From: Pristionchus mayeri
Lineage: Eukaryota > Nematoda > Chromadorea > Rhabditida > Neodiplogasteridae
Assembly: GCA_036245805.1 (NCBI GenBank)
Contig: BTRK01000005.1
Coordinates: forward strand, 31,229,469-31,293,468
Direction of reading: 5' to 3'
Length of the DNA stretch: 64,000 bases
The notes beneath the pieces were generated by a model. It was not told where the DNA came from. It ran no database searches and saw only the letters and a program-made list of their open reading frames with translations. Position numbers and translations under genes: made by a program. Of the stretch, positions 4,500-58,982 are shown piece by piece. Position 1 is the stretch's first letter, and the number at the start of each line of letters is the position of its first letter.

Positions 4500-5481
4500 A
4501 TGTCTCCAGTGACTAAGAAGTCTCGTCTCGACGATTCGGCTGCCTCGGATGTGTTTCTCTATGGTATGTTCATACTATCCAATCATTTTTTAAAATAAAT
4601 TTGTCATTAAATACGTGCTTGAGTTTGAAAGTATATTATTCAACAGGAAATTAGAGTAGGGAAACATATTCATATTGTTGCCCCTTTATTCGTCGTTCAA
4701 GCGTCCGAAAATTGAGCACGTTTAAAGTAGAATACGTTGGGACGGATAAGGATGAGTATAATTTCTGTTCGCATTTATTCGAATATAGCAATATTAAAAA
4801 GCTACGAAATTTGGGCGGTGCCTAGAAATTCAATCGCGCGTCAACGCGTAAAATGAGAAATTTCGCTTAATTCGTTTGCTATTTGAATTAAGTTATTGTG
4901 TACACTCCTTGTTTTAACAATAAAAAGGCGGAATAGAAAATAATAGTTTAGGAAATTGGTTTGAAATTATGAAGTGTGACGCGGAATTTATTGTTCCGGA
5001 GCGTGGTGTAGGACATATTTTTATAATCCAGTATTATTTGAGATATGTTCAGTAAGTTCACTGAAATTGCTATATTTCAGATAGTTCACCATCGGGATTT
5101 ATTCGCTACGAGGTCTCTACTGACGATGTTGTTGAGAAGGACATGTTTTCTCGTGGAATCGAAGTTCTGGGATTGTCGTGGTATAAAACTTTTCTACCAT
5201 AATGATCCATGAATGGATTTTTTTCATTCCACTTGAAACGATATTCCATGTTAAAATGCGTTTAACGGTAAAAGTGTTACGTTTTCCGATTCGCCCTCAT
5301 TTCTCCTCATTGAACACTTATGAAATATGCTTGTTCTAGGGAACTGGAAGTGGTGGAATGCGATGGAAAATTAGCATGTTATCTTCACCGTAGTCTCAGT
5401 GATTGCGATATGTGGAGCATCGAAGCTTCCGTCGAATTCAGACTTATCAATATTGATTATGCAGAAAATGAAATTGGAAAG
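4500..5481 (+). CDS. MATH-domain gene, 5' part, truncated by gap (gene 3)
   Basis: Exon 1 (4500-4563) encodes MSPVTKKSRLDDSAASDV. Exon 2 (5081-5180) begins the MATH domain (SGFIRYEVSTDD) and ends in a split Trp codon before GT, as in all paralogues. Exon 3 (5340-5481) continues MATH (CYLHRSLSDCDMWSIEASVE). Its exon 3 is nearly the same as the first exon of gene 1, so genes 1 and 3 are close duplicates. The next exons (second half of MATH, then BTB) are not seen before the run of N at 5690; they may lie in the gap or have been replaced by the satellite. Start chosen at the MSP.. motif shared by the family. Confidence 0.7.
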
Positions 5482-5689
5482 GTATCCATTATTAACGATT
5501 TTTTTTTGCAGTTGTATAGTTCGACGGAAGGCCCATTTTGGAAGTTATTTTGAGTTGTGTAACTTAATGAATAGTTCGCATAGGAAACGATAGAGGGTGT
5601 TTTCGACTTTAGGAGATCCCTATCCTAATTAAGAACTCTCTAAATAGAGTAGTGATGAAATAGAACATGATGAATTAAGCTCAAAATAC

Positions 5690-6189
5690 NNNNNNNNNNN
5701 NNNNNNNNNNNNNNNNNNNNNNNNNNNNNNNNNNNNNNNNNNNNNNNNNNNNNNNNNNNNNNNNNNNNNNNNNNNNNNNNNNNNNNNNNNNNNNNNNNNN
5801 NNNNNNNNNNNNNNNNNNNNNNNNNNNNNNNNNNNNNNNNNNNNNNNNNNNNNNNNNNNNNNNNNNNNNNNNNNNNNNNNNNNNNNNNNNNNNNNNNNNN
5901 NNNNNNNNNNNNNNNNNNNNNNNNNNNNNNNNNNNNNNNNNNNNNNNNNNNNNNNNNNNNNNNNNNNNNNNNNNNNNNNNNNNNNNNNNNNNNNNNNNNN
6001 NNNNNNNNNNNNNNNNNNNNNNNNNNNNNNNNNNNNNNNNNNNNNNNNNNNNNNNNNNNNNNNNNNNNNNNNNNNNNNNNNNNNNNNNNNNNNNNNNNNN
6101 NNNNNNNNNNNNNNNNNNNNNNNNNNNNNNNNNNNNNNNNNNNNNNNNNNNNNNNNNNNNNNNNNNNNNNNNNNNNNNNNNNNNNNNNN
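5690..6189. other. Assembly gap, 500 N
   Basis: Exactly 500 N, a typical placeholder of unknown true size. It abuts the left end of the 39-bp satellite, so the array length and its left border are unresolved. Confidence 0.98.
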
Positions 6190-9100
6190 GTAGCTTTGGA
6201 ACATTTTCGAACTTTCTGGAACATTCTAGAAGCTTTGGAACATTTTCGAACTTTCGGGAACATTCTAGAAGCTTTGGAACATTTTCGAACTTTCTGGAAC
6301 ATTCTAGAAGCTTTGGAACATTTTCGAACTTTCTGGAACATTCTAGAAGCTTTGGAACATTTTCGAACTTTCTGGAACATTCTAGAAGCTTTGGAACATT
6401 TTCGAACTTTCTGGAACATTCTAGAAGCTTTGGAACATTTTCGAACTTTCTGGAACATTCTAGAAGCTTTGGAACATTTTCGAACTTTCTGGAACATTCT
6501 AGAAGCTTTGGAACATTTTCGAACTTTCTGGAACATTCTAGAAGCTTTGGAACATTTTCGAACTTTCTGGAACATTCTAGAAGCTTTGGAACATTTTCGA
6601 ACTTTCTGGAACATTCGAGAAGCTTTGGAACATTTTCGAACTTTCGGGAACATTCTAGAAGCTTTGGAACATTTTCGAACTTTCGGGAACATTCTAGAAG
6701 CTTTGGAACATTCTAGAAGCTTTGGAACATTTTCGAACTTTCTGGAACATTCTAGAAGCTTTGGAACATTTTCGAACTTTCTGGAACATTCTAGAAGCTT
6801 TGGAACATTTTCGAACTTTCGGGAACATTCTAGAAGCTTTGGAACATTCTAGAAGCTTTGGAACATTTTCGAACTTTCGGGAACATTCTAGAAGCTTTGG
6901 AACATTCTAGAAGCTTTGGAACATTTTCGAACTTTCTGGAACATTCTAGAAGCTTTGGAACATTTTCGAACTTTCTGGAACATTCTAGAAGCTTTGGAAC
7001 ATTTTCGAACTTTCGGGAACATTCTAGAAGCTTTGGAACATTTTCGAACTTTCGGGAACATTCTAGAAGCTTTGGAACATTTTCGAACTTTCGGGAACAT
7101 TCTAGAAGCTTTGGAACATTCTAGAAGCTTTGGAACATTTTCGAACTTTCTGGAACATTCTAGAAGCTTGAACATTTTCGAACTTTCTGGAACATTCTAG
7201 AAGCTTTGGAACATTTTCGAACTTTCGGAACATTCTAGAAGCTTTGGAACATTTTCGAACTTTCTGGAACATTCTAGAAGCTTTGGAACATTTTCGAACT
7301 TTCTGGAACATTCTAGAAGCTTTGGAACATTTTCGAACTTTCTGGAACATTCTAGAAGCTTTGGAACATTTTCGAACTTTCTGGAACATTCTAGAAGCTT
7401 TGGAACATTTTCGAACTTTCGGGAACATTCTAGAAGCTTTGGAACATTTTCGAACTTTCTGGAACATTCTAGAAGCTTTGGAACATTTTCGAACTTTCTG
7501 GAACATTCTAGAAGCTTTGGAACATTTTCGAACTTTCTGGAACATTCTAGAAGCTTTGGAACATTTTCGAACTTTCTGGAACATTCTAGAAGCTTTGGAA
7601 CATTTTCGAACTTTCGGGAACATTCTAGAAGCTTTGAACATTTTCGAACTTTCGGGAACATTCTAGAAGCTTGGAACATTCTAGAAGCTTTGGAACATTT
7701 TCGAACTTTCTGGAACATTCTAGAAGCTTTGGAACATTTTCGAACTTTCTGGAACATTCGAGAAGCTTTGGAACATTTTCGAACTTTCGGGAACATTCTA
7801 GAAGCTTTGGAACATTCTAGAAGCTTTGGAACATTTTCGAACTTTCGGGAACATTCTAGAAGCTTTGGAACATTCTAGAAGCTTTGGAACATTTTCGAAC
7901 TTTCTGGAACATTCTAGAAGCTTTGGAACATTTTCGAACTTTCTGGAACATTCTAGAAGCTTTGGAACATTTTCGAACTTTCGGGAACATTCTAGAAACT
8001 TTGGAACATTTTCGAACTTTCGGGAACATTCTAGAAGCTTTGGAACATTTTCGAACTTTCTGGAACATTCTAGAAGCTTTGGAACATTTTCGAACTTTCT
8101 GGAACATTCTAGAAGCTTTGGAACATTTTCGAACTTTCTGGAACATTCTAGAAGCTTTGAACATTTTCGAACTTTCTGGAACACTCTAGAAGCTTTGGAA
8201 CATTTTCGAACTTTCGGGAACATTCTAGAAGCTTTGGAACATTTTCGAACTTTCGGGAACATTCTAGAAGCTTTGGAACATTTTCGAACTTTCTGGAACA
8301 TTCTAGAAGCTTTGGAACATTTTCGAACTTTCTGGAACATTCGAGAAGCTTTGGAACATTTTCGAACTTTCGGGAACATTCTAGAAGCTTTGGAACATTT
8401 TCGAACTTTCGGGAACATTCTAGAAGCTTTGGAACATTCTAGAAGCTTTGGAACATTTTCGAACTTTCGGGAACATTCTAGAAGCTTTGGAACATTCTAG
8501 AAGCTTTGGAACATTTTCGAACTTTCTGGAACATTCTAGAAGCTTTGGAACATTTTCGAACTTTCGGGAACATTCTAGAAGCTTTGGAACATTTTCGAAC
8601 TTTCTGGAACATTCTAGAAGCTTTGGAACATTTTCGAACTTTCTGGAACATTCTAGAAGCTTTGGAACATTTTCGAACTTTCGGGAACATTCTAGAAACT
8701 TTGGTACATTTTCGAACTTTCGGGAACATTCTAGAAGCTTTGGAACATTTTCGAACTTTCTGGAACATTCTAGAAGCTTTGGAACATTTTCGAACTTTCT
8801 GGAACATTCTAGAAGCTTTGGAACATTTTCGAACTTTCTGGAACATTCTAGAAGCTTTGGAACATTTTCGAACTTTCGGGAACATTCTAGAAGCTTTGGA
8901 ACATTTTCGAACTTTCTGGAACATTCTAGAAGCTTTGGAACATTTTCGAACTTTCTGGAACATTCTAGAAGCTTTGGAACATTTTCGAACTTTCTGGAAC
9001 ATTCTAGAAGCTTTGGAACATTCTAGAAGCTTTGGAACATTTTCGAACTTTCGGGAACATTCTAGAAGCTTTGGAACATTCTAGAAGCTTTGGAACATTT

Positions 9101-12100
9101 TCGAACTTTCTGGAACATTCTAGAAGCTTTGGAACATTTTCGAACTTTCTGGAACATTCTAGAAGCTTTGGAACATTTTCGAACTTTCGGGAACATTCTA
9201 GAAACTTTGGAACATTTTCGAACTTTCGGGAACATTCTAGAAGCTTTGGAACATTTTCGAACTTTCTGGAACATTCTAGAAGCTTTGGAACATTTTCGAA
9301 CTTTCTGGAACATTCTAGAAGCTTTGGAACATTTTCGAACTTTCTGGAACATTCTAGAAGCTTTGGAACATTTTCGAACTTTCTGGAACACTCTAGAAGC
9401 TTTGGAACATTTTCGAACTTTCGGGAACATTCTAGAAGCTTTGGAACATTTTCGAACTTTCGGGAACATTCTAGAAGCTTTGGAACATTTTCGAACTTTC
9501 TGGAACATTCTAGAAGCTTTGGAACATTTTCGAACTTTCTGGAACATTCGAGAAGCTTTGGAACATTTTCGAACTTTCGGGAACATTCTAGAAGCTTTGG
9601 AACATTTTCGAACTTTCGGGAACATTCTAGAAGCTTTGGAACATTCTAGAAGCTTTGGAACATTTTCGAACTTTCGGGAACATTCTAGAAGCTTTGGAAC
9701 ATTCTAGAAGCTTTGGAACATTTTCGAACTTTCTGGAACATTCTAGAAGCTTTGGAACATTTTCGAACTTTCGGGAACATTCTAGAAGCTTTGGAACATT
9801 TTCGAACTTTCTGGAACATTCTAGAAGCTTTGGAACATTTTCGAACTTTCTGGAACATTCTAGAAGCTTTGGAACATTTTCGAACTTTCGGGAACATTCT
9901 AGAAACTTTGGTACATTTTCGAACTTTCGGGAACATTCTAGAAGCTTTGGAACATTTTCGAACTTTCTGGAACATTCTAGAAGCTTTGGAACATTTTCGA
10001 ACTTTCTGGAACATTCTAGAAGCTTTGGAACATTTTCGAACTTTCTGGAACATTCTAGAAGCTTTGGAACATTTTCGAACTTTCGGGAACATTCTAGAAG
10101 CTTTGGAACATTTTCGAACTTTCGGGAACATTCTAGAAGCTTTGGAACATTCTAGAAGCTTTGGAACATTTTCGAACTTTCGGGAACATTCTAGAAGCTT
10201 TGGAACATTTTCGAACTTTCTGGAACATTCTAGAAGCTTTGGAACATTTCGAACTTTCGGGAACATTCTAGAAGCTTTGGAACATTTTCGAACTTTCGGG
10301 AACATTCTAGAAGCTTTGGAACATTCTAGAAGCTTTGGAACATTTTCGAACTTTCTGGAACATTCTAGAAGCTTTGGAACATTTTCGAACTTTCTGGAAC
10401 ATTCTAGAAGCTTTGGAACATTTTCGAACTTTCGGGAACATTCTAGAAACTTTGGAACATTTTCGAACTTTCGGGAACATTCTAGAAGCTTTGGAACATT
10501 TTCGAACTTTCTGGAACATTCTAGAAGCTTTGGAACATTTTCGAACTTTCTGGAACATTCTAGAAGCTTTGGAACATTTTCGAACTTTCTGGAACATTCT
10601 AGAAGCTTTGGAACATTTTCGAACTTTCTGGAACACTCTAGAAGCTTTGGAACATTTTCGAACTTTCGGGAACATTCTAGAAGCTTTGGAACATTTTCGA
10701 ACTTTCGGGAACATTCTAGAAGCTTTGGAACATTTTCGAACTTTCTGGAACATTCTAGAAGCTTTGGAACATTTTCGAACTTTCTGGAACATTCGAGAAG
10801 CTTTGGAACATTTTCGAACTTTCGGGAACATTCTAGAAGCTTTGGAACATTTTCGAACTTTCGGGAACATTCTAGAAGCTTTGGAACATTCTAGAAGCTT
10901 TGGAACATTTTCGAACTTTCGGGAACATTCTAGAAGCTTTGGAACATTCTAGAAGCTTTGGAACATTTTCGAACTTTCTGGAACATTCTAGAAGCTTTGG
11001 AACATTTTCGAACTTTCGGGAACATTCTAGAAGCTTTGGAACATTTTCGAACTTTCTGGAACATTCTAGAAGCTTTGGAACATTTTCGAACTTTCTGGAA
11101 CATTCTAGAAGCTTTGGAACATTTTCGAACTTTCGGGAACATTCTAGAAACTTTGGTACATTTTCGAACTTTCGGGAACATTCTAGAAGCTTTGGAACAT
11201 TTTCGAACTTTCTGGAACATTCTAGAAGCTTTGGAACATTTTCGAACTTTCTGGAACATTCTAGAAGCTTTGGAACATTTTCGAACTTTCTGGAACATTC
11301 TAGAAGCTTTGGAACATTTTCGAACTTTCTGGAACATTCTAGAAGCTTTGGAACATTTTCGAACTTTCTGGAACATTCGAGAAGCTTTGGAACATTTTCG
11401 AACTTTCGGGAACATTCTAGAAGCTTTGGAACATTTTCGAACTTTCGGGAACATTCTAGAAGCTTTGGAACATTCTAGAAGCTTTGGAACATTTTCGAAC
11501 TTTCGGGAACATTCTAGAAGCTTTGGAACATTCTAGAAGCTTTGGAACATTTTCGAACTTTCTGGAACATTCTAGAAGCTTTGGAACATTTTCGAACTTT
11601 CTGGAACATTCTAGAAGCTTTGGAACATTTTCGAACTTTCGGGAACATTCTAGAAACTTTGGAACATTTTCGAACTTTCGGGAACATTCTAGAAGCTTTG
11701 GAACATTTTCGAACTTTCTGGAACATTCTAGAAGCTTTGGAACATTTTCGAACTTTCTGGAACATTCTAGAAGCTTTGGAACATTTTCGAACTTTCTGGA
11801 ACATTCTAGAAGCTTTGGAACATTTTCGAACTTTCTGGAACACTCTAGAAGCTTTGGAACATTTTCGAACTTTCGGGAACATTCTAGAAGCTTTGGAACA
11901 TTTTCGAACTTTCGGGAACATTCTAGAAGCTTTGGAACATTTTCGAACTTTCTGGAACATTCTAGAAGCTTTGGAACATTTTCGAACTTTCTGGAACATT
12001 CGAGAAGCTTTGGAACATTTTCGAACTTTCGGGAACATTCTAGAAGCTTTGGAACATTTTCGAACTTTCGGGAACATTCTAGAAGCTTTGGAACATTCTA

Positions 12101-15100
12101 GAAGCTTTGGAACATTTTCGAACTTTCGGGAACATTCTAGAAGCTTTGGAACATTCTAGAAGCTTTGGAACATTTTCGAACTTTCTGGAACATTCTAGAA
12201 GCTTTGGAACATTTTCGAACTTTCGGGAACATTCTAGAAGCTTTGGAACATTTTCGAACTTTCTGGAACATTCTAGAAGCTTTGGAACATTTTCGAACTT
12301 TCTGGAACATTCTAGAAGCTTTGGAACATTTTCGAACTTTCGGGAACATTCTAGAAACTTTGGTACATTTTCGAACTTTCGGGAACATTCTAGAAGCTTT
12401 GGAACATTTTCGAACTTTCTGGAACATTCTAGAAGCTTTGGAACATTTTCGAACTTTCTGGAACATTCTAGAAGCTTTGGAACATTTTCGAACTTTCAGG
12501 AACATTCTAGAAGCTTTGGAACATTTTCGAACTTTCAGGAACATTCTAGAAGCTTTGGAACATTTTCGAACTTTCTGGAACATTCGAGAAGCTTTGGAAC
12601 ATTTTCGAACTTTCTGGAACATTCTAGAAGCTTTGGAACATTTTCGAACTTTCGGGAACATTCTAGAAGCTTTGGAACATTTTCGAACTTTCTGGAACAT
12701 TCTAGAAGCTTTGGAACATTTTCGAACTTTCTGGAACATTCTAGAAGCTTTGGAACATTTTCGAACTTTCTGGAACATTCTAGAAGCTTTGGAACATTTT
12801 CGAACTTTCTGGAACATTCTAGAAGCTTTGGAACATTTTCGAACTTTCTGGAACATTCTAGAAGCTTTGGAACATTTTCGAACTTTCTGGAACATTCGAG
12901 ATGCTCTGGAACATTTTCGAACTTTCGGGAACATTCTAGAAGCTTTGGAACATTTTCGAACTTTCGGGAACATTCTAGAAGCTTTGGAACATTTTCGAAC
13001 TTTCTGGAACATTCTAGAAGCTTTGGAACATTTTCGAACTTTCTGGAACATTCGAGAAGCTTTGGAACATTTTCGAACTTTCGGGAACATTCTAGAAGCT
13101 TTGGAACATTTTCGAACTTTCGGGAACATTCTAGAAGCTTTGGAACATTTTCGAACTTTCTGGAACATTCTAGAAGCTTTGGAACATTTTCGAACTTTCG
13201 GGAACATTCTAGAAGCTTTGGAACATTTTCGAACTTTCTGGAACATTCTAGAAGCTTTGGAACATTTTCGAACTTTCTGGAACATTCTAGAAGCTTTGGA
13301 ACATTTTCGAACTTTCGGGAACATTCTAGAAACTTTGGTACATTTTCGAACTTTCGGGAACATTCTAGAAGCTTTGGAACATTTTCGAACTTTCTGGAAC
13401 ATTCTAGAAGCTTTGGAACATTTTCGAACTTTCTGGAACATTCTAGAAGCTTTGGAACATTTTCGAACTTTCTGGAACATTCTAGAAGCTTTGGAACATT
13501 TTCGAACTTTCTGGAACATTCTAGAAGCTTTGGAACATTTTCGAACTTTCTGGAACATTCTAGAAGCTTTGGAACATTTTCGAACTTTCTGGAACATTCG
13601 AGATGCTCTGGAACATTTTCGAACTTTCGGGAACATTCTAGAAGCTTTGGAACATTTTCGAACTTTCTGGAACATTCTAGAAGCTTTGGAACATTTTCGA
13701 ACTTTCTGGAACATTCGAGAAGCTTTGGAACATTTTCGAACTTTCGGGAACATTCTAGAAGCTTTGGAACATTTTCGAACTTTCGGGAACATTCTAGAAG
13801 CTTTGGAACATTCTAGAAGCTTTGGAACATTTTCGAACTTTCTGGAACATTCTAGAAGCTTTGGAACATTTTCGAACTTTCGGGAACATTCTAGAAGCTT
13901 TGGAACATTTTCGAACTTTCGGGAACATTCTAGAAGCTTTGGAACATTTTCGAACTTTCTGGAACATTCTAGAAGCTTTGGAACATTTTCGAACTTTCGG
14001 GAACATTCTAGAAGCTTTGGAACATTTTCGAACTTTCTGGAACATTCTAGAAGCTTTGGAACATTTTCGAACTTTCTGGAACATTCTAGAAGCTTTGGAA
14101 CATTTTCGAACTTTCTGGAACATTCTAGAAGCTTTGGAACATTTTCGAACTTTCTGGAACATTCTAGAAGCTTTGGAACATTTTCGAACTTTCTGGAACA
14201 TTCTAGAAGCTTTGGAACATTTTCGAACTTTCTGGAACATTCGAGATGCTCTGGAACATTTTCGAACTTTCGGGAACATTCTAGAAGCTTTGGAACATTT
14301 TCGAACTTTCGGGAACATTCTAGAAGCTTTGGAACATTTTCGAACTTTCTGGAACATTCTAGAAGCTTTGGAACATTTTCGAACTTTCTGGAACATTCGA
14401 GAAGCTTTGGAACATTTTCGAACTTTCGGGAACATTCTAGAAGCTTTGGAACATTTTCGAACTTTCGGGAACATTCTAGAAGCTTTGGAACATTTTCGAA
14501 CTTTCTGGAACATTCTAGAAGCTTTGGAACATTTTCGAACTTTCGGGAACATTCTAGAAGCTTTGGAACATTTTCGAACTTTCTGGAACATTCTAGAAGC
14601 TTTGGAACATTTTCGAACTTTCTGGAACATTCTAGAAGCTTTGGAACATTTTCGAACTTTCGGGAACATTCTAGAAACTTTGGTACATTTTCGAACTTTC
14701 GGGAACATTCTAGAAGCTTTGGAACATTTTCGAACTTTCTGGAACATTCTAGAAGCTTTGGAACATTTTCGAACTTTCTGGAACATTCTAGAAGCTTTGG
14801 AACATTTTCGAACTTTCTGGAACATTCTAGAAGCTTTGGAACATTTTCGAACTTTCTGGAACATTCTAGAAGCTTTGGAACATTTTCGAACTTTCTGGAA
14901 CATTCTAGAAGCTTTGGAACATTTTCGAACTTTCGGGAACATTCTAGAAACTTTGGTACATTTCGAACTTTCGGGAACATTCTAGAAGCTTTGGAACATT
15001 TTCGAACTTTCTGGAACATTCTAGAAGCTTTGGAACATTTTCGAACTTTCTGGAACATTCTAGAAGCTTTGGAACATTTTCGAACTTTCTGGAACATTCT

Positions 15101-16063
15101 AGAAGCTTTGGAACATTTTCGAACTTTCTGGAACATTCTAGAAGCTTTGGAACATTTTCGAACTTTCTGGAACATTCTAGAAGCTTTGGAACATTTTCGA
15201 ACTTTCTGGAACATTCGAGATGCTCTGGAACATTTTCGAACTTTCGGGAACATTCTAGAAGCTTTGGAACATTTTCGAACTTTCTGGAACATTCTAGAAG
15301 CTTTGGAACATTTTCGAACTTTCTGGAACATTCGAGAAGCTTTGGAACATTTTCGAACTTTCGGGAACATTCTAGAAGCTTTGGAACATTTTCGAACTTT
15401 CGGGAACATTCTAGAAGCTTTGGAACATTCTAGAAGCTTTGGAACATTTTCGAACTTTCTGGAACATTCTAGAAGCTTTGGAACATTTTCGAACTTTCGG
15501 GAACATTCTAGAAGCTTTGGAACATTTTCGAACTTTCGGGAACATTCTAGAAGCTTTGGAACATTTTCGAACTTTCTGGAACATTCTAGAAGCTTTGGAA
15601 CATTTTCGAACTTTCTGGAACATTCTAGAAGCTTTGGAACATTTTCGAACTTTCTGGAACATTCTAGAAGCTTTGGAACATTTTCGAACTTTCTGGAACA
15701 TTCTAGAAGCTTTGGAACATTTTCGAACTTTCGGGAACATTCTAGAAACTTTGGTACATTTTCGAACTTTCGGGAACATTCTAGAAGCTTTGGAACATTT
15801 TCGAACTTTCTGGAACATTCTAGAAGCTTTGGAACATTTTCGAACTTTCTGGAACATTCTAGAAGCTTTGGAACATTTTCGAACTTTCTGGAACACTCTA
15901 GAAGCTTTGGAACATTTTCGAACTTTCTGGAACATTCTAGAAGCTTTGGAACATTTTCGAACTTTCTGGAACATTCTAGAAGCTTTGGAACATTTTCGAA
16001 CTTTCTGGAACACTCTAGAAGCTTTGGAACATTTTCGAACTTTCTGGAACATTCTAGAAGCTT
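6190..16063. repeat. 39-bp minisatellite array, about 250 units
   Basis: A continuous tandem array. The usual unit is 39 bp, made of GAAGCTTTGGAACATT then TTCGAACTTTCTGG then AACATTCTA. Short 19-bp units (GAAGCTTTGGAACATTCTA) are interspersed; they equal a full unit minus the 20 bp between its two GGAACATT motifs. Because 39 is 13 codons and the unit has no stop in several frames, very long open frames (up to 1553 codons) arise with a 13-residue period such as EHFRTFWNILEAL; they shift frame at each 19-bp unit and are not credible genes. Blocks of about 14 or 15 full units plus a 19-39-19 motif recur, giving a higher-order repeat. The array ends sharply in ..GAAGCTTT at 16064. Confidence 0.97.
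6190..16063. promoter_or_regulatory. Dense array of heat-shock elements (predicted HSF sites)
   Basis: Heat-shock factor binds contiguous alternating nGAAn/nTTCn pentamers. Each 39-bp unit contains five perfect pentamers in exact 5-bp register (GAA, TTC, GAA, TTC, GAA) followed by an imperfect sixth (TTT). First unit example: from CGAAC through TTTCT, GGAAC, ATTCT to AGAAG. Most unit variants change only the spacer base between pentamers. Binding is inferred from the motif; no function is shown. If bound, one locus would hold well over a thousand pentamers. Confidence 0.7.
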
Positions 16064-16064
16064 T

Positions 16065-16740
16065 GACCCATGGCTAATTATCGATTGGTATACTGTAGCC
16101 GACCTAATGCTAATTATTAATTGGCATACTTTAGATCAAAGATCAAAGATCAAAATCATAAATCTGACTCACGGAATAATAGGTGACCCATGGCAAATTA
16201 TCGATTGGTATACGGTAGTTGACCCAATGCTAATTATTGATTGGTATACGGTAATTCAAAGATCAAAGGTCAAAATCGTAAATCTGACCCACGGCATAAG
16301 ATGTGACCCATGGCTAATTATCGATTGGTATACGGTAGTTGACCCAATGCTAATTATTGATTGGTATACGGTAATTCAAAGATCAAAGGTCAAAATCATA
16401 AATCTGGCCCACGGAATAAGAGGTGACCCATGGCTAATTATCGATTGGTATACGGTAATTGACCCAATGTTAATTATTGATTGGCATACGGTAATTCAAA
16501 GATCAAAGGTCAAAATCATAAATCTGACCCACGGAATAAGAGGTGACCCATGGCTAATTATCGATTGGTATACGGTAGTTGACCCAATGCTAATTATTGA
16601 TTGGCATACGGTGAGTCAAAGATCAAAGGTCAAAATCATAAATCTGACCCACGGAATAAGAGGTGACCCATGGCTAATTATCGATTGGTATACGGTAGTT
16701 GACCCAATGCTAATTATTGATTGGTATACGGTAGTGGACC
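16065..16740. repeat. 120-bp tandem repeat, 5.6 copies
   Basis: The motif GACCCATGG recurs at 16065, 16185, 16305, 16425, 16545 and 16665, exactly 120 bp apart. Each unit holds two 36-bp near-copies starting GACCCAT or GACCCAA and containing ATTGGTATACGG. Each also carries TCAAAGATCAAAGGTCA, i.e. AGATCA-A-AGGTCA, a DR1-type nuclear-receptor motif. It directly abuts the 39-bp array. Copies are nearly identical, so the array is young. Confidence 0.95.
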
Positions 16741-16910
16741 GATGCCTTTGTAACTTCATCTGTCCCTCCCCTCCCTATTTCGCAATCCGGACAGACGGAC
16801 AGACACACACAGCGCTTTATATATAGGTATATATAATAGGCTTTATATATAGGATTTTGGCAATATTAATATTAGATAATGTTTGGTTGTGAAGCAACAT
16901 TTTTCGGAAT
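16741..16910. other. Unannotated spacer after the tandem repeats
   Basis: Contains CAGACGGACAGACACACAC and a short TATATA-rich stretch. A similar pyrimidine-rich, CAATCCGG-containing piece occurs near 20110-20160, suggesting a dispersed repeat tail. No gene seen. Confidence 0.4.
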
Positions 16911-19845
16911 ATGCTAATTCGGACCGGTTTCATTCACACGGCTTTGGACGTTATCATAAATTCGTTTCTTGGCGTTTCGTCCACTCAAATCGTGCTTCAA
17001 TTGCAGGAAGTTGTCAGTGCGGGCAGAAAAGAAGCCACCTCATCAGACGAAGTGCTTAAGCATCTTTACCCACGCAAACTTCGAGTGCGAATCCCCTCTG
17101 TGGGAGTGCTCCTTCACTTCCAGAATCATCGTCAGAAATATCAACAATGCGAAGGACTCTTGCGGCGAGGCGAGTCATTTTGAGAATCACAACTCTCAAT
17201 TATGTTATTTGTACACTCGTTCTTGCGAGTTTTATTTGAAATTCTTTTTTTTTTTCATTCCACAGCTTTCGAAAAAAATTTTAAGCCGAATTAGATTGCG
17301 ATCACTAAATGTGTGCTTTATTTTAAGAGCGTTTCTACGTACAACTACAAGCACAACGAGGCAAGCATTGAATTGTACGGTGATAATGGAGAAACGAAGA
17401 TGAGTATCCTGGATCCAAGCATGGTATTACAATATTCTGGCCCAATTGAGTTTTTAAATAGAGAAAACTTTGTAGGGTTTCATCATCAACAACAAATTGT
17501 ATGTCGAAGTTAGGATCTATGTGAACAGTTTCACTGGAATGGGGTATGCATTCTCTATTACTTTCTCGCATATTATTACATTTCGGAGTATGATGACATT
17601 TTTGAATGTTTATATTAAATTGTGTACATCATTATTATCTATCATTCAATTCCCAGATGCAAGCCTCGCTTCGAATTCTCTGCTTCTTGGGACTCTCGTT
17701 CTGATGTTACGCTCGTTATAGAAGGAAAGAAAGTTCATGTGAACAAGCAGGTTTGGTAAATTTATCGCACTTTTCAAAATATACTACAGTATCTTGCCTG
17801 AGGAAATGGGTGCATTAGTAGTTTAAATATAATCTCTACTACAGTACCTCGGCATATACTCTCACTTTTTCTCGTCTCTCTTCTTTGGATTTTTCCTGGA
17901 GAAAGGAAAGAAGGAAGTTAAATTGGAGGATGTCGCTTACGAAGTTTGTCATTTCAAGTTGCTCTAGGAATGATTAAATTTTGAACTGGATTATATGAAA
18001 AAATTGTCAACTCCCTGAATTCCTGGAATTGAAATAATATTAATGTGTTTACTTTATGCAAATCTTGTCAGGAATTCATTGAACTCCTTCATATCATTTA
18101 CCCTTCTCGCAAAAAGATCACAGGTTGGCTTTTATATTTTTTAAATATTTTTGACTTCGTAGTATTGTGTTCATCCTTGAATTCAGATGAATCGTATGAA
18201 TTTCTTCTCAAGATTGGAGACCGATTCGATATTGCGGTTAGCGATGTGTTTATCCGACACGTATCCATATGTAAATATTTTCCAGTTTGTAATTGATCGT
18301 GTGGAGGATTTCCTCATCAAATCGACCACCATTTCGCTTGATAAGAAGCGCGAACTCGCCGAACAGTATCGCCTCGCTAGACTTGGGGTAAGTGACGACT
18401 CTTTCCAATACGATATTTATTTGAGAACTGCTGCTCCCTTACAGTCCCTTTCACACAATGTCAGAACTTCCTAGGTTTATTCGATTTAAAAAAAAATAGT
18501 GATCTAGAAAGATATTTCGAGTATTCCAGGTTATGGACTTCTCAGACTCGAGCGATAATCGTTCAGACGTCTCTTTGATTGTCGGAGGAATGGCGATTCA
18601 CGTGAACAAGCAGGTAGACTGGCATATGTGCTATAAATATAACTGGTACAACAAGATAATTCTATAAAGATCCTTTATCAATCGCATATTAAGTAAATTA
18701 TTTATATTTGTAGTACCTCGGAATGTACTCTCCCGTATTCCATAGGCTCTTCTTCGATAATTCAGATGACAGAGAGAAGAATGAGTTCGAACTGGAGGGC
18801 GTTGACTACAAGGTTTTAAAACTGTTTTGATACTTTGATAGTCCAGTAGTTATGGAGACTTTCGAATTATGCGTACATAGATTTCGAATATATTGAATGA
18901 TTCGTATTTATTGCTCATATTTTGATGAAGCTGAGATTAAGACCACGCAATAGCGATGTCAATGAATGGATTATTGCAGGACTTCATCGATCTCCTTCAC
19001 GTGATCTACCCCAGCAAGAAGGCCCCAGGTACGATAACACTGTGCTATTTCATAATTATTGTACGAGTTGTAGGTCAAATTATTTCCGTTGTTAGACGCA
19101 GAAGAAAATTTTGCAAACTTTTGCTTGAGGCGTGTGAGCTTTGAGGAATCACTATGTCGGGGGCACTCGGTCCATGTCTTCCAATTCGGATGGTACACAT
19201 CCGAGGGTTATCATCCGACCTAGTACCTTCGAAATCACCACACATCTCAAGCGTTTATTCCAGAAGGCTCGGCCGAGGGTCTGCTCAAGCTTGCGAAGCG
19301 TTTCGATATTGGGGTCGGCATCATTTTATCAATTTAAACAAATATAAAAACAATTGTACAACAAATATGCCAATATCAGTGTGTGACCGAGCAAGCAGAG
19401 GCATCTCTCATCGCATCACGCACCATTTCGATCCTGGAGAAATTGAGAATCTCCGAGCAGTACAAACTGTTCAGACTGCAGGTTTGTGAAAGCGGATTTT
19501 CGGTCATTAATAAAAAAACTGACTGATTGAAATTGCAACTCACGCCAAAGAGGAGGAAAAAGTAAGAACGGCGAATAAAACTAATTCTCAGGATCACTGC
19601 TTCTCCGAATTAACCGCTCATTGCCATTTCGAGGCTGTAAAGGTTGATATAATATTTATGTTTCCTGAGTCTCGTATCTGAATATATTTTCCTATGCATC
19701 ATTCTGTTACGTGGAATGAGCACTCAGAATAGAGGGAAGAAAACACTTGGAGAATTCCTTATTCCAGCGTTCTTCCGTCTACAAAATCCTCTCCGATGCT
19801 ACGAAGGCAGCTCTCTTTGAGCAGATGGTCAAAAAGATCAAATGA
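16911..19845 (+). CDS. MATH-BTB-BACK-BTB-BACK protein (gene 4)
   Basis: N-terminus unclear: MATH-like pieces at about 16911-17240 in two frames (GFIHTALDVIINS; then FECESPLWECSFTSRIIVRN), followed by clear MATH exons 17328-17423 and 17476-17543 (LYVEVRIYVNSFTG). First BTB: 17657-17750 (DVTLVIEGKKVHVNKQ), 17845-17943, 18072-18123, 18187-18236, then BACK-like 18286-18387. Second BTB: 18530-18613 (DVSLIVGGMAIHVNKQ), 18714-18812, 18980-19028, 19264-19313, then BACK-like exons 19380-19481, 19592-19642 and 19768-19845, ending KKIK and TGA. Two BTB domains in one chain could allow internal pairing or binding of two CUL-3 molecules (inference). The frame change in the first MATH exons and the weak donor after 19313 leave open whether it is intact. 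Confidence 0.65.
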
Positions 19846-24481: not shown

Positions 24482-27400
24482 ATGTCTCCGCCTAGGAAAA
24501 TTCGTAAAACCGAAGGAGATCAAGTCTCCCCTCTAGGTTGTTAAACCATAGTTTCGCAAACAAAGATACAGCGCATATTTAATAGTTTTACAGGCGGAAT
24601 GATTCGATTCGAAGTGGATCATGTTTCGGCAATGGATGAATTCGATGGTGGTCGATATTCTCCAAGTGTCAACGTCGGAGGAATTAATTGGTGGGCTACA
24701 TTTGCATTATATTTTATTTTCGGGAGCGTTTGCATAATACACTCTTGGAGCCGAACTCAGGCAAACATAATAAAGACAATACGAACCAATGTGTATTTGC
24801 TAACCAACATGTAAATCAATGTCCTCCTTGACATAGTTAAATCACGAAATTTAGGAGTGCAAAGGTCCTCAAGAAGCGAGATGAGAATGGAATAGAAGCA
24901 ATCTCTTTTTACCTGTGCAATATGGACTTCAAATCGATGTTCGGAAGCATCGACGTTCGTTCTAAATTCGCTCTCATTAATCATGATTCTACCAAAAGTT
25001 TCGCTACAGAGGTAGTGATCATATGTAGTTTCACTATCTTAATTCTTTTCTAGGGCGTTCTTACTTATAAATATGACACTGATAACTGGGGCTACAGTCA
25101 TATAGTGAAATGGAGTGATCTGGTCGACCGAGAGAAAGTGAGTCAATTAAGATGTAAAGAAATGAGAAACTTTCTCTTTTTTTTCTCCAAATTAATCGAC
25201 CTAGGGTTTCATCAAAGATGGCAAGATCACGGTCGAAATTTACTTCAGTATCGTCAAAATGACTGGATTCAGGTGCGTATTATGGTATAGACATGAAACT
25301 ATTCTGTGTGAAACTATTAGGTTGGTTCATAAGTTTCTTTCTTTTTTCATGCACCAACATTCTGACCTCCCTAGGTAGTCGCAATGAGCCAATCAAATAA
25401 TTGTTTTTGATGTTGATACGGACATGGGTACACATTATAGCGAATACTATATTGGGTTGATTCGATCAATTAGAATAGAGCATTTTAGTTCGGAAGTAAT
25501 CGGACCAGCTCCAGCAGTCCGACTTTTCAATTGCTCTATGCTCCGAGGGATAGCACAAAGGCTACATTTAGCACATTATTACAAAGTACTTTGACTGGGT
25601 ATATCATACGACATAGCCCACCAAATCTGCCCTGAGAAACCTACTAGAAATGTTGGCCCAATTACAGAACTACAGTCTTTGAAAATCATAGATCACAAAT
25701 TGTTGAGCGCAATTTCCTTACACAGCATTGATGAATTATTTTGTTTTAAATAGTAGAAAGTATAACGTTGGTGCCCACCTAATAAGTGAATGGGTGAAAG
25801 GAGAACTTCCTGAGAGAAAGGGGAGGGTGTTTCGGTCCTAGGTCGTAGACACCCAACCCGCCTCACAATGTGTGGACCTCGTCAGTACGACGCCCATTGT
25901 GAGTGGAGATTAAAAGATAAGGGTCAAAAGGGATAGTATGAGTAATATAGGATGGTTAGATAAAGTATAGGGATGAAGAGGTTACAACAAACAACGCGAC
26001 GAAATTTGAATGTGATAAATAAAAAGGAAAAAATGGGAGTGATGAAGGGAGTCTGACTTGATTTTGTTGATCAGCGAGAATGAGATAGGAAGGGACTTGA
26101 TCGATTGACCTCGCCAGATTGGGCAGAGAGGGAAGGGAAGAGCCTCGATCTATTTCTCGCGCCAAAATAGGGAGAGAGAAGGGAAGGGAGATCATCGATC
26201 GATTGACCTCGCCAGATCGGGCAGAGAGGGAAGGGAAGAGCCTCGATCTATTTCTCGCGCCAAAATAGGGAGAGAGAGAAGGGAAGGTAGATCATCGATC
26301 GATTGACCTCGCCAGATTGGGTAGAGGGGAGGGAACCGAATTGGTCAATTGGGCTGGTTGGAGATGGAAGGAGTTTTATGAGTGAAGGGAAGATGAAAAA
26401 AGAAGAGTGACGATAGGAGGGTAGAGAAAGGTGAATACATCATCAGATGCCGTTGGTAATGAGAATGCTAAGTTCATTGTTTGGAACGGCATATTTTAGT
26501 GATATAGTTTGAGTTTTGTTAAGTGATTTATAGAGTCGGGAAAAAACAATGTATTTGGGATAGTGTATTGTTATGAAGTACTTTACAAGTTTACGAACTC
26601 TATCCAGAAAGTGTTCAATTGAAGAACAGTTACGGTAGATTCGTATTATTTCCCCATGCAAAGTGTTTGCTCCCATATATCGTGGTATGTTTGATTCAAA
26701 GTGTGGGTATCTAACCACCGAGAATGAATAATCATCTGTCTTATTATACGAATGCTCAATTTCGATGGGTTGTGAAGTACTTTCCAATGTAAGTATGCTA
26801 ACAAATTTAGGAAAGGATATGACTTTCCGTTCAAGAACTGCAGACTTCGAAATAATAATGTTCAGATTCATCTGCTAAAATCAACACTTTTTGGATTCCC
26901 CTGCCTCCCATACACGTTCGAATCCGGATTTTTTTGTGCTTAGTAGAACAAAGAACTCCTGTTCAAGTGTTCCTCAATGGGCAGAATCAGAATCCCACAA
27001 GTATTCGATAACCTGAATTTATCCCAAAATGCTTAAAATAGCAGTTTTCCGATGTTAATTTTCTGAGACTTATCACCTTCTCACGATGATGCGTAGATCC
27101 AAATCATATGTACGGTAGTAATCTACCGCCATGGCCATAACACATGGCATTCATAAAATCATGAGAGTCTAGGCACGCCAACCGAAATTTGAAAAATAAA
27201 AAAGAAAGAAACTTATGAACCAACCTAATAATTGGATATTTTTTTGGTATAGAAAGTAAATGTTGGTACATTTTCGCAATTTCTTTTCGCATTCTGAGTT
27301 TTCTGAAACCACCCACTCTTATGACAAAAATGAATTGAGAACGATTCACGTAACTGCACCAATCATACTCCGGAAAGACCTTTCCCCTGATTCCAAACAT

Positions 27401-49511: not shown

Positions 49512-49595
49512 TGAACGATTGTGCTCTCTCTCCTATACGCACCCGACTCACAAGCAGCCAGGAAAAACAAGGATGAGGCACACCGTTACAACTCT

Positions 49596-49735
49596 CAGTT
49601 CCAGAAGGAACCTACAACACTCAGCTCCCGAAGGAACCTACAGACACTCAGCTCCCGAAGGAACCTACAGACACTCAGCTCCCGAAGGAACCTACAGACA
49701 CTCAGCTCCCGAAGGAACCTACAGACAGACGACAA
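49596..49735. repeat. 27-bp tandem repeat in the LTR, about 5 copies
   Basis: Units of the form ACTCAGCTCC-CGAAGGAACC-TACAGAC. Located near the LTR end, not present in the short 5' LTR remnant at 59001-59084, which breaks off exactly where this repeat would begin. Confidence 0.9.
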
Positions 49736-51211: not shown

Positions 51212-52027
51212 TCAGTACTTCTTTCTCCACTCAGATCTTCTTCTCGGCTTTGCGCACATTTCCTGGAGATGGCCGAGCTTGTGACAATTGTAGCATTCCT
51301 GCTTCGCCAGCCATTCTTCATTCGATGAGTTGCTGGTTGATCCTCTCAACCCGAAATCCGTCTTCTTCTTGTGAGGAATCTCTGGTTTCTTCTCGTCGTT
51401 CTCCTTGACCGATCTCTTCCTGACGATGTGATTCTTGTTCTTGGGATTCTCCATTGTGAGGGGAGTTCCATTGATGATGTGTCTCGCCGCCTTCTCGAAG
51501 ATAAAGTTGGTCTCCTTTCCCACAGCTTGATAAAGCGTGAGGAACGGTGTAAAACCGTTCAGTACTCCACTGAGGCTCGTGCAGATGGAGATTCCCTCGG
51601 GCCTACGGAAATACCATTCCGTCAGAATCTTCAATTGTGTCTGTGCTTGCTCGGTGCTCACTTGGTCTGTCCTCGAAGGCAACAGATCACTCGAGACCAC
51701 CACATCTATCTTCTCTCTCTTCACTAATTCTTCGAAGTATCCGGCAAACTCTGCCACCGAGTCTTCTGAGAGATTTCGGTCGAGCAGAACGAAAACGGTC
51801 TTGGGAAGACGATCTGCACACTCTGATTCCATCATCGTCTTCATCATCTCGGAGATTGTCTCGTACGTGGAGTACTTGAAGTATCCAGAACCGCCATCGG
51901 CCGGGATCACCGATTCAGCTGGCAGCAGAACGAGCACTCCTTCCTTGCTCTCTCCACTGGTTCCATCTTCAAGGAGTATCTCCGAGATCATCTTGCTCAT
52001 CTCGACTCCTTCCTCCTCGATGTCCAA
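51212..52027 (-). CDS. 3' ORF of the Gypsy element with zinc knuckle
   Basis: About 271 codons in the same frame as pol, directly after the pol stop TAA; the first ATG is at 52000. N-terminal half of unknown fold (VFVLLDRNLSEDSVAEF; ILTEWYFRRPEGISICTSL), a basic linker (HIVRKRSVKEN) and, near residue 250, a CCHC knuckle CYNCHKLGHLQEMC. No membrane segment or signal peptide is visible, so it does not look like an envelope protein. A nucleic-acid-binding accessory protein is possible, made by readthrough or from a spliced RNA. I do not recognise the family. Confidence 0.6.
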   Translation of the reverse strand: MDIEEEGVEMSKMISEILLEDGTSGESKEGVLVLLPAESVIPADGGSGYFKYSTYETISEMMKTMMESECADRLPKTVFVLLDRNLSEDSVAEFAGYFEELVKREKIDVVVSSDLLPSRTDQVSTEQAQTQLKILTEWYFRRPEGISICTSLSGVLNGFTPFLTLYQAVGKETNFIFEKAARHIINGTPLTMENPKNKNHIVRKRSVKENDEKKPEIPHKKKTDFGLRGSTSNSSNEEWLAKQECYNCHKLGHLQEMCAKPRRRSEWRKKY

Positions 52028-55000
52028 TTAATTCATTCCGTCATCGATATCGGCAACTTCAGCTAGTGCACATGGACACAGGGCCATCTTGTATGCCAGT
52101 TTCATGCTGGTCATGCTCACACTCTTGATGTTCACCCTCTTCTTGGCTTCTTTCTGGAGGTCCAATTTGGTCAGTTGGGGCAACTCTCTGGATGCGTCGA
52201 GCAATCCCGCACACTCTCTCATCGTGGCAAAATATGTCCCCTTGAGGGTACCGTAATCGGCTCCATTGAAGACGTCAGCCATCTGTCTTCTCTTACAGCC
52301 TTCACTCCCACAGCGGGCGTCGGGATGGAGAAGCGATGCTCGATTGATGACGAGGCTGGAAATGACACGATTCATTCTTTTTGTCTTTTCCGACTTCCAT
52401 TGTATATTGTACACATCTACTCCTTTCTCATCCCTCGGAACTAAACGCAATCGATCCCACTGGACAATTCTCTTATTGGCATCTCGCCCATTCTCTAATC
52501 CATCATCAGCTCTCACTAACACCGCCGTAGTATTACTTGTAGAAGTCACTCTATATGGGCCTTCATAATTATCCATCATCTTCCTTATATCGCCACACTT
52601 TGCCTCTACACGCACATACACTCGATCTCCTGCCTTAGGCACTACATTCATGTTGTGCTTGTGCTTCTCATCGTAACGCGTCTTGATTTTCCTACGCTCA
52701 TTTTCCAACTTCAGAAGGACTGTCGATCTCGTTTTCTCCATCATCCAAACCATCCTTCTCTTATAGTCATCAACATCCAAATCTACCGTATACGCAGGAT
52801 TGGTCTGGGGCAACTGGCTACTAGGCAACTTCTCGTCTCGACCGTACATCAAAAATGCGGGTGTTTCTCCAGTTGATCCGTGGGGACTTGCATTATATGC
52901 GTAAACAGCAAAAGGCAATGCTTCTTCCCATTCATCGTCGCGCATTTTGATTCGTTTCATGATCTCAACAATTGTTCTATTGAACCTCTCAGTTAAACCA
53001 TTTGCTCTACTATGATAAGGGAGTGTGAGTTTTTGTTCGATCTGAAATCGTTTCACAATCTCCGCCATCACTTGGTTCACTAATTCAGTTCCATTGTCGG
53101 AAACAAGTGCTTTCGGGGTTCGACCTCCTTCTAGAATCCATCTCTCCATAAACACTTTCGCTACAGTATCCGCTTTCTTGTCCCGTATCGCAAACGCTCC
53201 AGCGAATTTAGTGAAATGATCGATAATAGAGACAATATACTTTCCTCCGTCCTTTCCTTTTCCCATCTCTATTAAATCAATGCCGACTACATCCATCGGG
53301 TAGTTCGAAACTATCGGCTGAAGGGGAGGGATCATTCGCTTCTGGGAGTTCGCCATCAAACATTGCTCACATCTCTTGACTACAGTATGAACATCTTTCT
53401 CTACGCATCCCCAGAACGCTTCTCTCAATATTCTCTGCACTAATTTCATCGTTTCTAGATGACCTGTCAACGGAGAATTGTGCATTTCTTCCACAAAACT
53501 CTCTCTCCGTCCCTCTGGTATATACAATCTCTTCTCGTGATCCGTTCCGAGCAAATACAGAATTCCATCATGCACTTCCCAATCAGCAATTGAAGTTCTC
53601 TTAGTGCTCCCAGGTATAACAACCTCTTCAGTCATCTCTCGTTTTCCCTTATCAGCGTCTTTCCTCTTCTCTATCATTGAAACAACCCACTGATCACTTG
53701 ACTGAGCCGTTCTCCACTCATTCAGAATCACCTCTTCCTCTAACTCTTCTCTACTCTTTCTCCTATCTTCTTCTTTTGATCTCTCTAACGCAGTCTTTGA
53801 TCTTGTCATCGCATTAACTACCATTCCAACTTCCTCAGTACCATCACTCTCTCCTGGTTTCTCGACTCTAGGATTCCTGCTCAACGCGTCGGCCACCACA
53901 TTCGACTTTCCTTTAACATGCTCAATCTCGAGAGGATACGATTGTAGTTCCGTAGCCCATCTCAACAATCGAGAGGCAACGTGTTTTCGCTTGAGAAGGG
54001 TCACCAACGGAGAGTGATCAGTCCTAACTATCGTCTTTATTGAATACAGGAGATGTTTCCATCTCATCACTGCTTCGTACACTGCCAAAGCCTCGGAATC
54101 AACTACATGCATACTGTGCTCAGAATCACGAAGCGCTCTTGAAAAGAATGCTAGTGGTCTTTCCAGACCATCTACTTCTCCTCTCTGACTCAACATGGCT
54201 CCAATCCCATTACCACTTGCATCCGTAGTTATTATAAAGGGTCGAATACCATCTCTCGCACCAACGTAATCTGGTTGTTGCAAAACAGGCGCAGTCGAAA
54301 TTTTCTCTTTGAGAATATTGAAAGCCTTATTCGCATCTTCAGTCCACAACAGCTTCCGACCCGTCGTCACAACCAATCTCATCAACGGGGCAACAATGCT
54401 AGCATACGACATCACGAATCTTCTCAAGTAACCAGTCAATCCCAAGAATGATTGCAACTGCGTCATCGTCTCTGGTCTCTTATACTCTCGAATCGCTACT
54501 ACCTTCTTGTCATCTATCAGTATTCCACTACCTGACAATCTATGCCCAAGGTATTCCGTCTCATCGACCATGATCTTGCACTTTTTTACATTCAGAAGAA
54601 GATTATTATCTCTTAATCGATCAAGAACTCTCGCCAACACTTCCTCGTGTCCTTCCTCTGTCTCTGTGGCAATGAGTATGTCGTCTATATATACATGCAC
54701 AACTCTTTCTCTCCCTTCCTTCTCCAATTCATCTTTCAAAACAGTGCTCATCGCTCGTTGGAAAATTGCAGGCGAGATGTTTAATCCGAATGGGAGTACC
54801 GTAAACTCGTACAATTCGCCCATGGATGCAAACGCTGTTACCTCGGAACTCTGCTTATTGAGCGTTACCTGCCAGAAACCAGATGCCAAGTCCATCACAG
54901 TGAAGAATCTTTTCCCTTGTAACGACTGAAGTATCGTTTCTATCAGGGGTAAGGGGAATGCATCCTCTTTCGTCACTTCGTTCACTCTCCGAAAATCTAT

Positions 55001-58904: not shown

Positions 58905-58982
58905 CTTCCCAACTGAACAAGACTCAGTTAGCACACAACACTCTCGATCAATAACACGGTCTTTACAATGGTCTCTTAGATT

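Follow-up and report, generated by a model that had tools for sequence, protein, structure and literature searches.

Features of the array locus

The window (the whole 64,000-nucleotide stretch of Pristionchus mayeri DNA that was analysed) contains a long tandem array of heat-shock elements (HSEs), bordered on its left by an assembly gap and on its right by a second tandem array and the 5′ end of a Helitron family. The features of this region are as follows:

5690..6189, no strand: assembly gap (run of 500 N) that conceals the left end of the array
6190..16063, minus strand (Helitron sense): 39-bp HSE array of ~250 units; unit letters are written on the plus strand
16064..16733, minus strand: 120-bp tandem array of 5.6 copies that accompanies the HSE array as its partner module in this Helitron family (repeat call and locus matches)
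16734..16827, minus strand: Helitron 5′ subterminal segment (CCCTATTTCGCAATCCGGACAGACGG ... AGCGCTTTATATATAGG), matching the family 5′ end with 0–1 mismatches
16828..16854, minus strand: probable 5′ terminus, where the terminal motif recurs in degenerate form; the exact edge of the insertion is uncertain
17295..18664, plus strand: exons of a downstream BTB-like gene (reading frames, for example DVTLVIEGKKVHVNKQ), assigned by eye

Tandem Repeats Finder places the array at 6194–16065, with a period of 39, 253.6 copies and 94% matches. The unit, GGAAC ATTTT CGAAC TTTCT GGAAC ATTCT AGAAG CTTT, holds five perfect pentamers in succession, the imperfect ATTTT and, past it, a further perfect GGAAC; a 4-base piece at the unit end puts successive units out of pentamer register. 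The array contains 231 runs of exactly five alternating GAA/TTC pentamers, equal to the number of occurrences of the five-pentamer pattern across the whole window (231, single strand only), and the longest pentamer run outside it is three (window scan excluding 5001–5689). Three-pentamer HSEs number 731 in the array (74/kb), compared with 6 in the remaining window (0.11/kb).

An earlier, sequence-only reading had described an HSE array with five perfect pentamers and a sixth, imperfect one in every unit. Both the array and this composition are borne out, the sixth pentamer being ATTTT; perfection of every unit holds for the consensus, but only 122 of the 241 placed units match that consensus exactly, with a T/G spacer change and compound units of 58 and 78 bp as frequent variants. 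The left border at 6190, taken in that reading as the edge of the array, is that of the 500-N gap and is not biological. By inference, the gap would also conceal a GA/CT-rich tract and the hairpin 3′ end of a Helitron.

No RNA family was matched in the window by Rfam at the gathering threshold. Open frames of up to 1,561 amino acids cross the array; a protein-coding array was considered and rejected, these frames being regarded as a period artefact because the 39-bp unit is 13 codons long and stop-free in some frames. The BTB-like gene at 17295..18664, about 1.2 kb away, is the first candidate host gene by the array, and the exons tried from it gave no match in Pfam. The single Pfam BTB match, in 1 of 10 neighbouring open frames, lies at 595–729; the MATH/BTB cluster proposed earlier was checked in its BTB part.

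Related arrays and Helitron ends

The search for further arrays envisaged in the sequence-only reading returned 18,649 occurrences of the 39-bp unit genome-wide. In 20 small-array loci on C1, picked by the HSE pattern alone, the array comprises 2–17 units in 18 loci and 30 and 54 units in the other two. The 120-bp array directly adjoins the HSE array in 18/20 of these loci, nearly all in the same phase; L010 and L022 carry HSE arrays without it, which implies that some HSE arrays are rearranged or free. The pattern of the HSE/120-bp junction has 276 matches genome-wide. To the right of the window array, the 120-bp array is likewise followed by the 5′ end of the Helitron family: positions 16064–16864 match 22 of 28 compared loci, with 80.6–97.6% identity over the best stretch, and the alignment of the window copy to its best relatives ends at about 16830. 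On C2 and C5, matches form clusters spanning roughly 25–30 kb (span by matches, interiors not read), and pieces from one side of these clusters (L034 and L036) contain gaps.

The ends of the element, in Helitron sense, read TC...CTGG with a flanking A before and a flanking T after, in agreement with the 5′-TC and 3′-CTRR expected of Helitrons. A mismatch scan located the hairpin 3′ end in 12/20 C1 loci and no regular hairpin end in the other 8; the base preceding it is A in 12/12, equivalent to CTGG followed by T in Helitron sense, and L017 has a degenerate 3′ end only, preceded by G. The 5′ end was matched in 12/20 loci, finishing in TAWTGA in 8 and in variant forms in 4, with a recognisable 5′ end absent from the remaining 8; among these HSE-chosen loci, T follows the TAWTGA-type ends in 8/8. 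Genome-wide, the end patterns, which include the flanking A or T, gave 207 matches for the 3′ end and 775 for the 5′ end, with 0 for the reversed controls. No hairpin 3′ end was found in the window, where it probably lies in or beyond the 500-N gap.

Folded with RNA parameters, the 3′ ends form a stem of 18–21 pairs in 8/8 cases (−32.5 to −41.3 kcal/mol), and the single valid fold with DNA parameters is moderately better than shuffled sequence (z −2.06; 9/200 shuffles as good). In classical Helitrons about 10 nt are left between the hairpin and the 3′ terminus; the stem of this family runs to the very terminus. An exact empty site was obtained for the 919-bp element L023: over 603 bp, its joined flanks agree with L022 at 96.7%, without a break at the flanking A and T and with no target duplication. 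This empty site lies within a duplicated part of C1 close by, and a full-length empty site was missing for 7 of 8 joined flanks in a search among the compared loci. In the seven loci with both ends defined, all 150 of 150 three-pentamer HSEs lie within the element and 0 outside. A free-standing satellite is rejected for the family, because its copies have flanks, ends and an empty site in common.

RepHel-encoding relatives and promoter layout

Two longer elements, L029 (6,527 bp) and L030 (9,195 bp), have the same two ends as the HSE-array elements and encode PF14214 together with PIF1/Pif1_2B (PF05970, PF21530), on a coding strand that points away from the HSE array. After merging of PF14214 loci, 23 of 70 have an HSE/120-bp junction 1.9–5.5 kb upstream in the expected orientation, compared with 0.4 by chance, using the 100 of 276 junctions that were listed; the other 47 RepHel loci have no nearby junction among these 100. 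Thirteen PF14214 matches fall in a differently built group with long open frames.

The 5′ region of L029 contains five-pentamer HSEs at 531–709, a TATA box near 1008, a five-pentamer HSE at 1053–1075 and a plausible start codon, picked by eye, at 1149. The HSE beside the TATA box is separate from the array and unlike its unit in sequence. Judged by sequence, this order of arrays, TATA box, HSE and start codon would constitute a heat-shock promoter layout. The genome carries an HSF gene (hsf-1-like) with a conserved DNA-binding domain. Among the PDB chains listed as matches to fragments of its HSF and eL28 proteins, in entries that give no species, none bears a nematode name. A complete Helitron of 11,440 bp, flanked by A and T, is present at C1:37355427-37366866, and its HSE array spans 9.5 kb, as given by unit matches along its length (the middle was not fetched).

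Origin and possible roles of the array

From the shared 120-bp partner, the shared ends, the RepHel relatives and the large-array Helitron on C1, it follows that the window array is very probably an overgrown promoter repeat of a Helitron that has reached satellite length. The sequence-only reading had presented it as an undescribed free-standing satellite and as an arrangement distinct from Helitron-borne HSEs; neither view is upheld, as the unit and the 120-bp array are internal repeats of a Helitron family, the 5′ end of which lies, after the 120-bp array, to the right of the window array. Taken as a whole, an internal HSE repeat of a Helitron, with putatively heat-driven RepHel and tandem growth, is the best explanation, and we hold it with high confidence.

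Three other readings were weighed. A minisatellite that resembles HSEs by accident, binding nothing and hitch-hiking in Helitrons, is very improbable, even though the central repeats of oyster Cg_HINE elements, in the description available, come with no stated factor site (PMC7492417). With the 39-mer tiled, a five-pentamer run arose in 0/200,000 mononucleotide shuffles and 1/60,000 dinucleotide-preserving shuffles, and the whole genome, both strands, has 13,068 five-pentamer matches (a run of six scores twice) compared with 0 for the reversed control, which rules out chance HSE likeness and bears out the earlier description of strong sites, these lying far outside what chance would give. The separate HSE of other sequence beside the RepHel TATA box also argues against it, as does the greater variability of the spacers: across 20 loci, pentamer letters vary by a mean of 2.6% and spacers by 5.7%, with spacer variation the higher in 16/20 (Wilcoxon p 4.6e-4; p 0.027 and 0.045 when tested by position). 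In L014 the pentamer core varies more than the spacer, and in L009, L010 (at printed precision) and L018 the two are equal; shared ancestry and the small number of positions may partly account for the reduced variation of pentamer letters.

That the window array has escaped from its Helitron and grows by itself, the adjoining Helitron parts being remnants, is unlikely, although the likeliest of the three. It would fit the failure to find a 3′ end in the window, the absence of the 120-bp array from L010 and L022, and the gaps in the L034 and L036 pieces of the C2/C5 clusters. Set against this, the window array is flanked by an intact 5′ portion of the element, and the complete C1 Helitron carries an array of about equal size. 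Somewhat less likely again is a satellite with a host function, in which long HSE arrays are kept as an HSF sink or a nuclear stress body scaffold. The abundance of five-pentamer matches and the length of some arrays (the 9.9-kb window array, the 9.5-kb C1 array and the C2/C5 clusters) would suit such a role, and worm HSF-1 granules are described as re-forming at similar places, implying a scaffold, with HSF-1 preferentially on Helitrons in heat-stressed germ cells (PMC9737000). The arrays are nevertheless dispersed and carried on a mobile element, so that no host function is needed to account for them, and most of those sampled are short.

Under the preferred reading of a Helitron promoter repeat, the 5′ end of RepHel copies would be followed closely, ahead of the RepHel gene, by the 120-bp array and a short array of 39-bp HSE units. 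On heat, or in any setting in which HSF-1 is active, HSF would bind the array cooperatively and turn on RepHel, which would mobilize its own element together with shorter, gene-less copies in which the ends and HSE array are retained. Some arrays, presumably including that of the window, would then grow to satellite size through rolling-circle slippage or unequal exchange. The Helitron seems to use the host heat-shock switch, and it has distributed thousands of such sites across the genome. The most likely effect on the host is that the array acts as a latent heat-inducible enhancer beside the BTB-like gene, with action as an HSF sink a possible side effect and a stress-body scaffold role of the window array likewise possible; the sink, stress-body seed and heat-driven transcription put forward in the sequence-only reading are sensible ideas. 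A dense cluster of HSF sites near BTB-like genes could, through insertion or loss between strains, rewire the heat response.

Comparison with known systems

Human satellite III and nuclear stress bodies offer a parallel in action, in that tandem repeats gathering HSF on heat would behave alike (PMC9032817, PMC9737000, PMC9261439, as described there). Satellite III is pericentromeric, whereas the HSE arrays here are dispersed and transposon-borne. Human satellite III blocks are also much larger than these arrays. Large pericentromeric blocks of that kind were not found: the junctions listed lie on C1–C6 and arrays comprise 2–54 units in the 20 loci, centromeres being unmapped. It is a speculative and rather improbable idea that satellite-length HSE arrays scaffold worm HSF-1 nuclear stress bodies, as a dispersed counterpart of satellite III built by Helitrons through selfish promoter duplication. 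Were it true, strains would differ in free HSF and heat tolerance according to array length. The composition of worm HSF-1 granules is given as largely unknown in a review (PMC9737000), and the HSE arrays provide a DNA handle on what these granules assemble on.

Among transposons, ONSEN/COPIA78 of Arabidopsis is similarly described as expressed through heat-responsive elements, and differs in being a plant LTR retrotransposon (PMC5059998, PMC3907296). Cg_HINE non-autonomous Helentrons of the Pacific oyster resemble the present family in their dispersed, satellite-like central repeats, at times two repeat kinds in a row, and in rolling-circle movement; they differ in having no factor-site content in the description available and in belonging to a different superfamily, Helentrons (PMC7492417).

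A close likeness is to Caenorhabditis Helitrons (Helitron1_CE, Helitron2_CE and HelitronY1/Y1A/Y4_CE; Garrigues et al. 2019, PMC6927752; Schreiner et al. 2019, PMC6765114), which are likewise reported to hold HSE clusters inside the element, with HSEs in the RepHel promoter spread by non-autonomous copies. In C. elegans, Helitron HSEs are described as bound by HSF-1, and Helitron1_CE RNA as heat-induced and HSF-1-dependent (PMC6765114, PMC6927752); several genomes are reported to contain one or more clusters with over 50 HSEs within 1 kb, under a different HSE definition (PMC6927752). The placement described by Garrigues et al. recurs here, with HSEs within the Helitron and on the RepHel promoter side (150/150 HSEs, 23/70 RepHel loci and L029). 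Different here, in a comparison by description, are the approximately 250 units in 10 kb and the paired 120-bp array; we found no description in the literature of a Helitron-borne HSE array of such length. The family links a transposon heat-shock promoter to satellite formation, combining a short module (2–17 units in 18/20 loci) with ~10-kb arrays, and the window array, on the evidence of its sequence, is an enlarged member of the published phenomenon of Helitron-borne HSEs (PMC6927752).

The array of heat-shock elements

The sequence-only reading had described a tandem array of heat-shock elements (HSEs) with a 39-bp unit at positions 6190–16063, and TRF confirmed both its existence and its position (6194–16065, period 39, 253.6 copies, 94% matches). 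The unit, GGAAC ATTTT CGAAC TTTCT GGAAC ATTCT AGAAG CTTT, gives rise to 231 runs of five perfect consecutive alternating GAA/TTC pentamers, and a pattern search of the whole window found none outside the array. Three-pentamer HSEs number 731 within the 9.87-kb array (74 per kb), compared with 6 in the remaining window (0.11 per kb). A run of five arose in none of 200,000 mononucleotide shuffles of the tiled unit and in one of 60,000 shuffles that preserved dinucleotides. As the left boundary is an assembly gap, the array’s true length is not fixed by the visible 9.87 kb. In some frames the unit forms 13 stop-free codons, leaving open frames of 1,561 and 1,332 amino acids that a gene caller could report as a false repetitive protein.

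Features of the window
5690–6189, assembly gap (500 N), left boundary of the HSE array
12141–16826, + strand, open frame across the repeat (stop-free 39-bp unit)
12137–16135, − strand, open frame across the repeat (stop-free 39-bp unit)
26099–26335, tandem array of AG-rich units of ~98 bp
49587–49727, tandem array of 27-bp units
51212–59021, − strand, LTR-type retrotransposon, from domain matches in open frames

The open frames of the retrotransposon carry aspartic protease, reverse transcriptase, RNase H and integrase domains; its 885-residue frame had no Pfam match.

Spread through the genome

In the 290.8-Mb assembly (73 contigs, with the window on contig C5), the 39-bp unit pattern occurs 18,649 times when up to 3 mismatches are allowed, and a general five-pentamer pattern occurs 13,068 times; the control for each, reversed in the case of the unit, gave 0. 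By inspection, the five-pentamer matches listed, all on contig C1, belong to this unit or to promoter HSEs of L029 and L030, two elements encoding the Helitron transposase RepHel, with the exception of one overlapping pair (C1:5940684 and 5940689). Patterns for the Helitron 5′ end, the Helitron 3′ end and the junction between the HSE array and an adjoining array of 120-bp units matched 775, 207 and 276 times, respectively (control, 0 for each). HSE hits also form clusters of ~25–30 kb at C2:16.17–16.19 Mb and C5:26.05–26.08 Mb, of which only the ends were read: one (L033) carries a Helitron 5′ end and the 120-bp array, and two (L034 and L036) contain assembly gaps.

The carrier element

Twenty C1 loci, selected by the HSE pattern alone, were oriented by the array and compared. 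The 120-bp array lies within 30 bp of the last HSE unit in 18 and is absent from L010 and L022. On the other side, a walk along the sequence found a C/T-rich tract of 0.28–2.7 kb in 14; the tract lies further out in L018, and the sequence beyond the array enters an assembly gap in L027. In L017, a different 39-bp repeat left of the array, with units like GGAACATTCTGGAAGGTTCCAGTCCTTTCCCCTCTCTTT, retains the HSE pentamers in an otherwise CT-rich sequence; in L018, a tRNA-like sequence, identified by eye, lies left of the array, between it and the CT-rich tract.

Beyond these modules are two recurring ends, which in Helitron sense, the reverse of the array orientation, start with TCAWTACCTATATATAAAGCGC and finish with a GC-rich hairpin and terminal CTGG. 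Mismatch scans placed each end in 12 of the 20 loci. The hairpin end is preceded by A in 12/12 (array orientation), and a degenerate form in L017 is preceded by G; the 5′ end finishes in TAWTGA in 8 of its 12 loci, with T next in all 8, and takes variant forms in L009, L015, L017 and L018. Both regular ends delimit elements of 919–3,145 bp in five loci. The hairpin folded with 18–21 pairs in all eight ends tried, and the single valid fold with DNA parameters showed a moderate advantage over shuffled sequences (z = −2.06).

The joined flanks of the 919-bp element in L023 match unbroken sequence in L022 (96.7% identity over 603 bp), with the join between A and T and no duplication; as these are neighbouring C1 stretches, this empty site is a local duplicate. 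Seven other flank joins had no full-length empty-site counterpart among the loci compared.

In the window, the HSE array continues to the right without a break into the 120-bp array (16064–16733) and then the 5′ end, to about 16827–16854. Of 28 loci compared with this right part, 22 match it at 80.6–97.6% identity. Over 767 bp it shares 94% identity with both L020 and a long C1 element; the Helitron 3′ end was not found in the window. The long element (C1:37355427–37366866) measures 11,440 bp between regular ends with A|T flanks, and its HSE units span 9.5 kb, the middle being represented by unit matches listed along its length. A Helitron can therefore hold an array of the window’s size.

RepHel and its promoter side

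Several open frames of L029 and L030, two loci picked for end spacings of 6.5 and 9.2 kb, encode Helitron_like_N (PF14214) and PIF1 helicase domains, on the strand heading away from the HSE array.

Promoter side of L029, from the 5′ end
120-bp array
531–709, five-pentamer HSEs
near 1008, TATA box
1053–1075, second five-pentamer HSE, of different sequence
1149, plausible start codon (by eye)

A genome search with PF14214 gave 81 matches, merging into 70 loci. At 23 of these an HSE/120-bp junction lies 1.9–5.5 kb upstream in the expected orientation, compared with 0.4 expected by chance, using 100 listed of the 276 junctions; the two opposite-orientation pairings trace to a neighbouring pair of inverted elements that had already been counted. 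In seven delimited loci, all 150 three-pentamer HSEs are inside the element.

The long CT/GA-rich tract of non-autonomous copies might derive from a GA-rich stretch just past the RepHel start region of L029 (1400–1700, Helitron sense). Thirteen PF14214 matches (C1:5379837, C2:39100240 and C6:40700715 among them) form a second group, apparently another Helitron family, and lie in open frames whose lengths run from 649 to 4,031 residues. On the RepHel promoter side, the 120-bp unit of the window and its relatives contains AGATCAAAGGTCA, which resembles a nuclear-receptor direct repeat; the 120-bp array is possibly a second regulatory array.

Possible retention of the HSE letters

Among 216 units from the 20 C1 loci, differences from the consensus affect 2.6% of five-pentamer letters versus 5.7% of the letters in between (mean of loci). 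Spacer variation was higher in 16 loci, lower in 1 and equal in 3 (Wilcoxon P = 4.6 × 10−4), and the contrast was weaker position by position (P = 0.027 and 0.045). The window array differs at 0.28% versus 5.1%, mostly through one T/G spacer site. Because the copies are related and the positions few, these values are only suggestive of retention of the HSE letters in copies.

Comparison with known systems

The window array is very probably of an ordinary kind and extreme in degree: a Helitron-family heat-shock promoter repeat that has been multiplied, in places to satellite length. Heat-shock factor (HSF) would be expected to bind it, and heat may induce and mobilize the elements; less probably, the arrays might serve as an HSF sink or scaffold. 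One genomic locus matches HSF_DNA-bind; its domain, with two introns omitted by eye, aligns at E = 3.5 × 10−26 to PDB chains labelled Heat shock factor protein 1 and keeps YFKHNN..S..RQLNMYGFRK.

No nematode HSE satellite was found by title in keyword searches of the open-access PMC literature, where we also found no description of 10-kb HSE arrays; novelty is not claimed. In Caenorhabditis elegans, most multimeric HSEs are reported to be bound cooperatively by the HSF-1 DBD, with up to five DBDs (PMC9148306), and Helitron1_CE heat induction to depend on HSF-1 (PMC6765114). Helitrons bound by HSF-1 are also described ahead of an F-box gene, on its upstream side, and their deletion is reported to affect fertility and heat resistance (PMC12062965). 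Long tandem tracts can reportedly arise through Helitron rolling-circle replication (PMC9071541), and the present arrays may have grown in such a manner. Almost two-thirds of C. elegans HSEs are reported to lie inside Helitrons, many binding HSF-1, and several Caenorhabditis genomes to hold high-density HSE clusters in Helitrons, several with a cluster of >50 HSEs per kb (PMC6927752).
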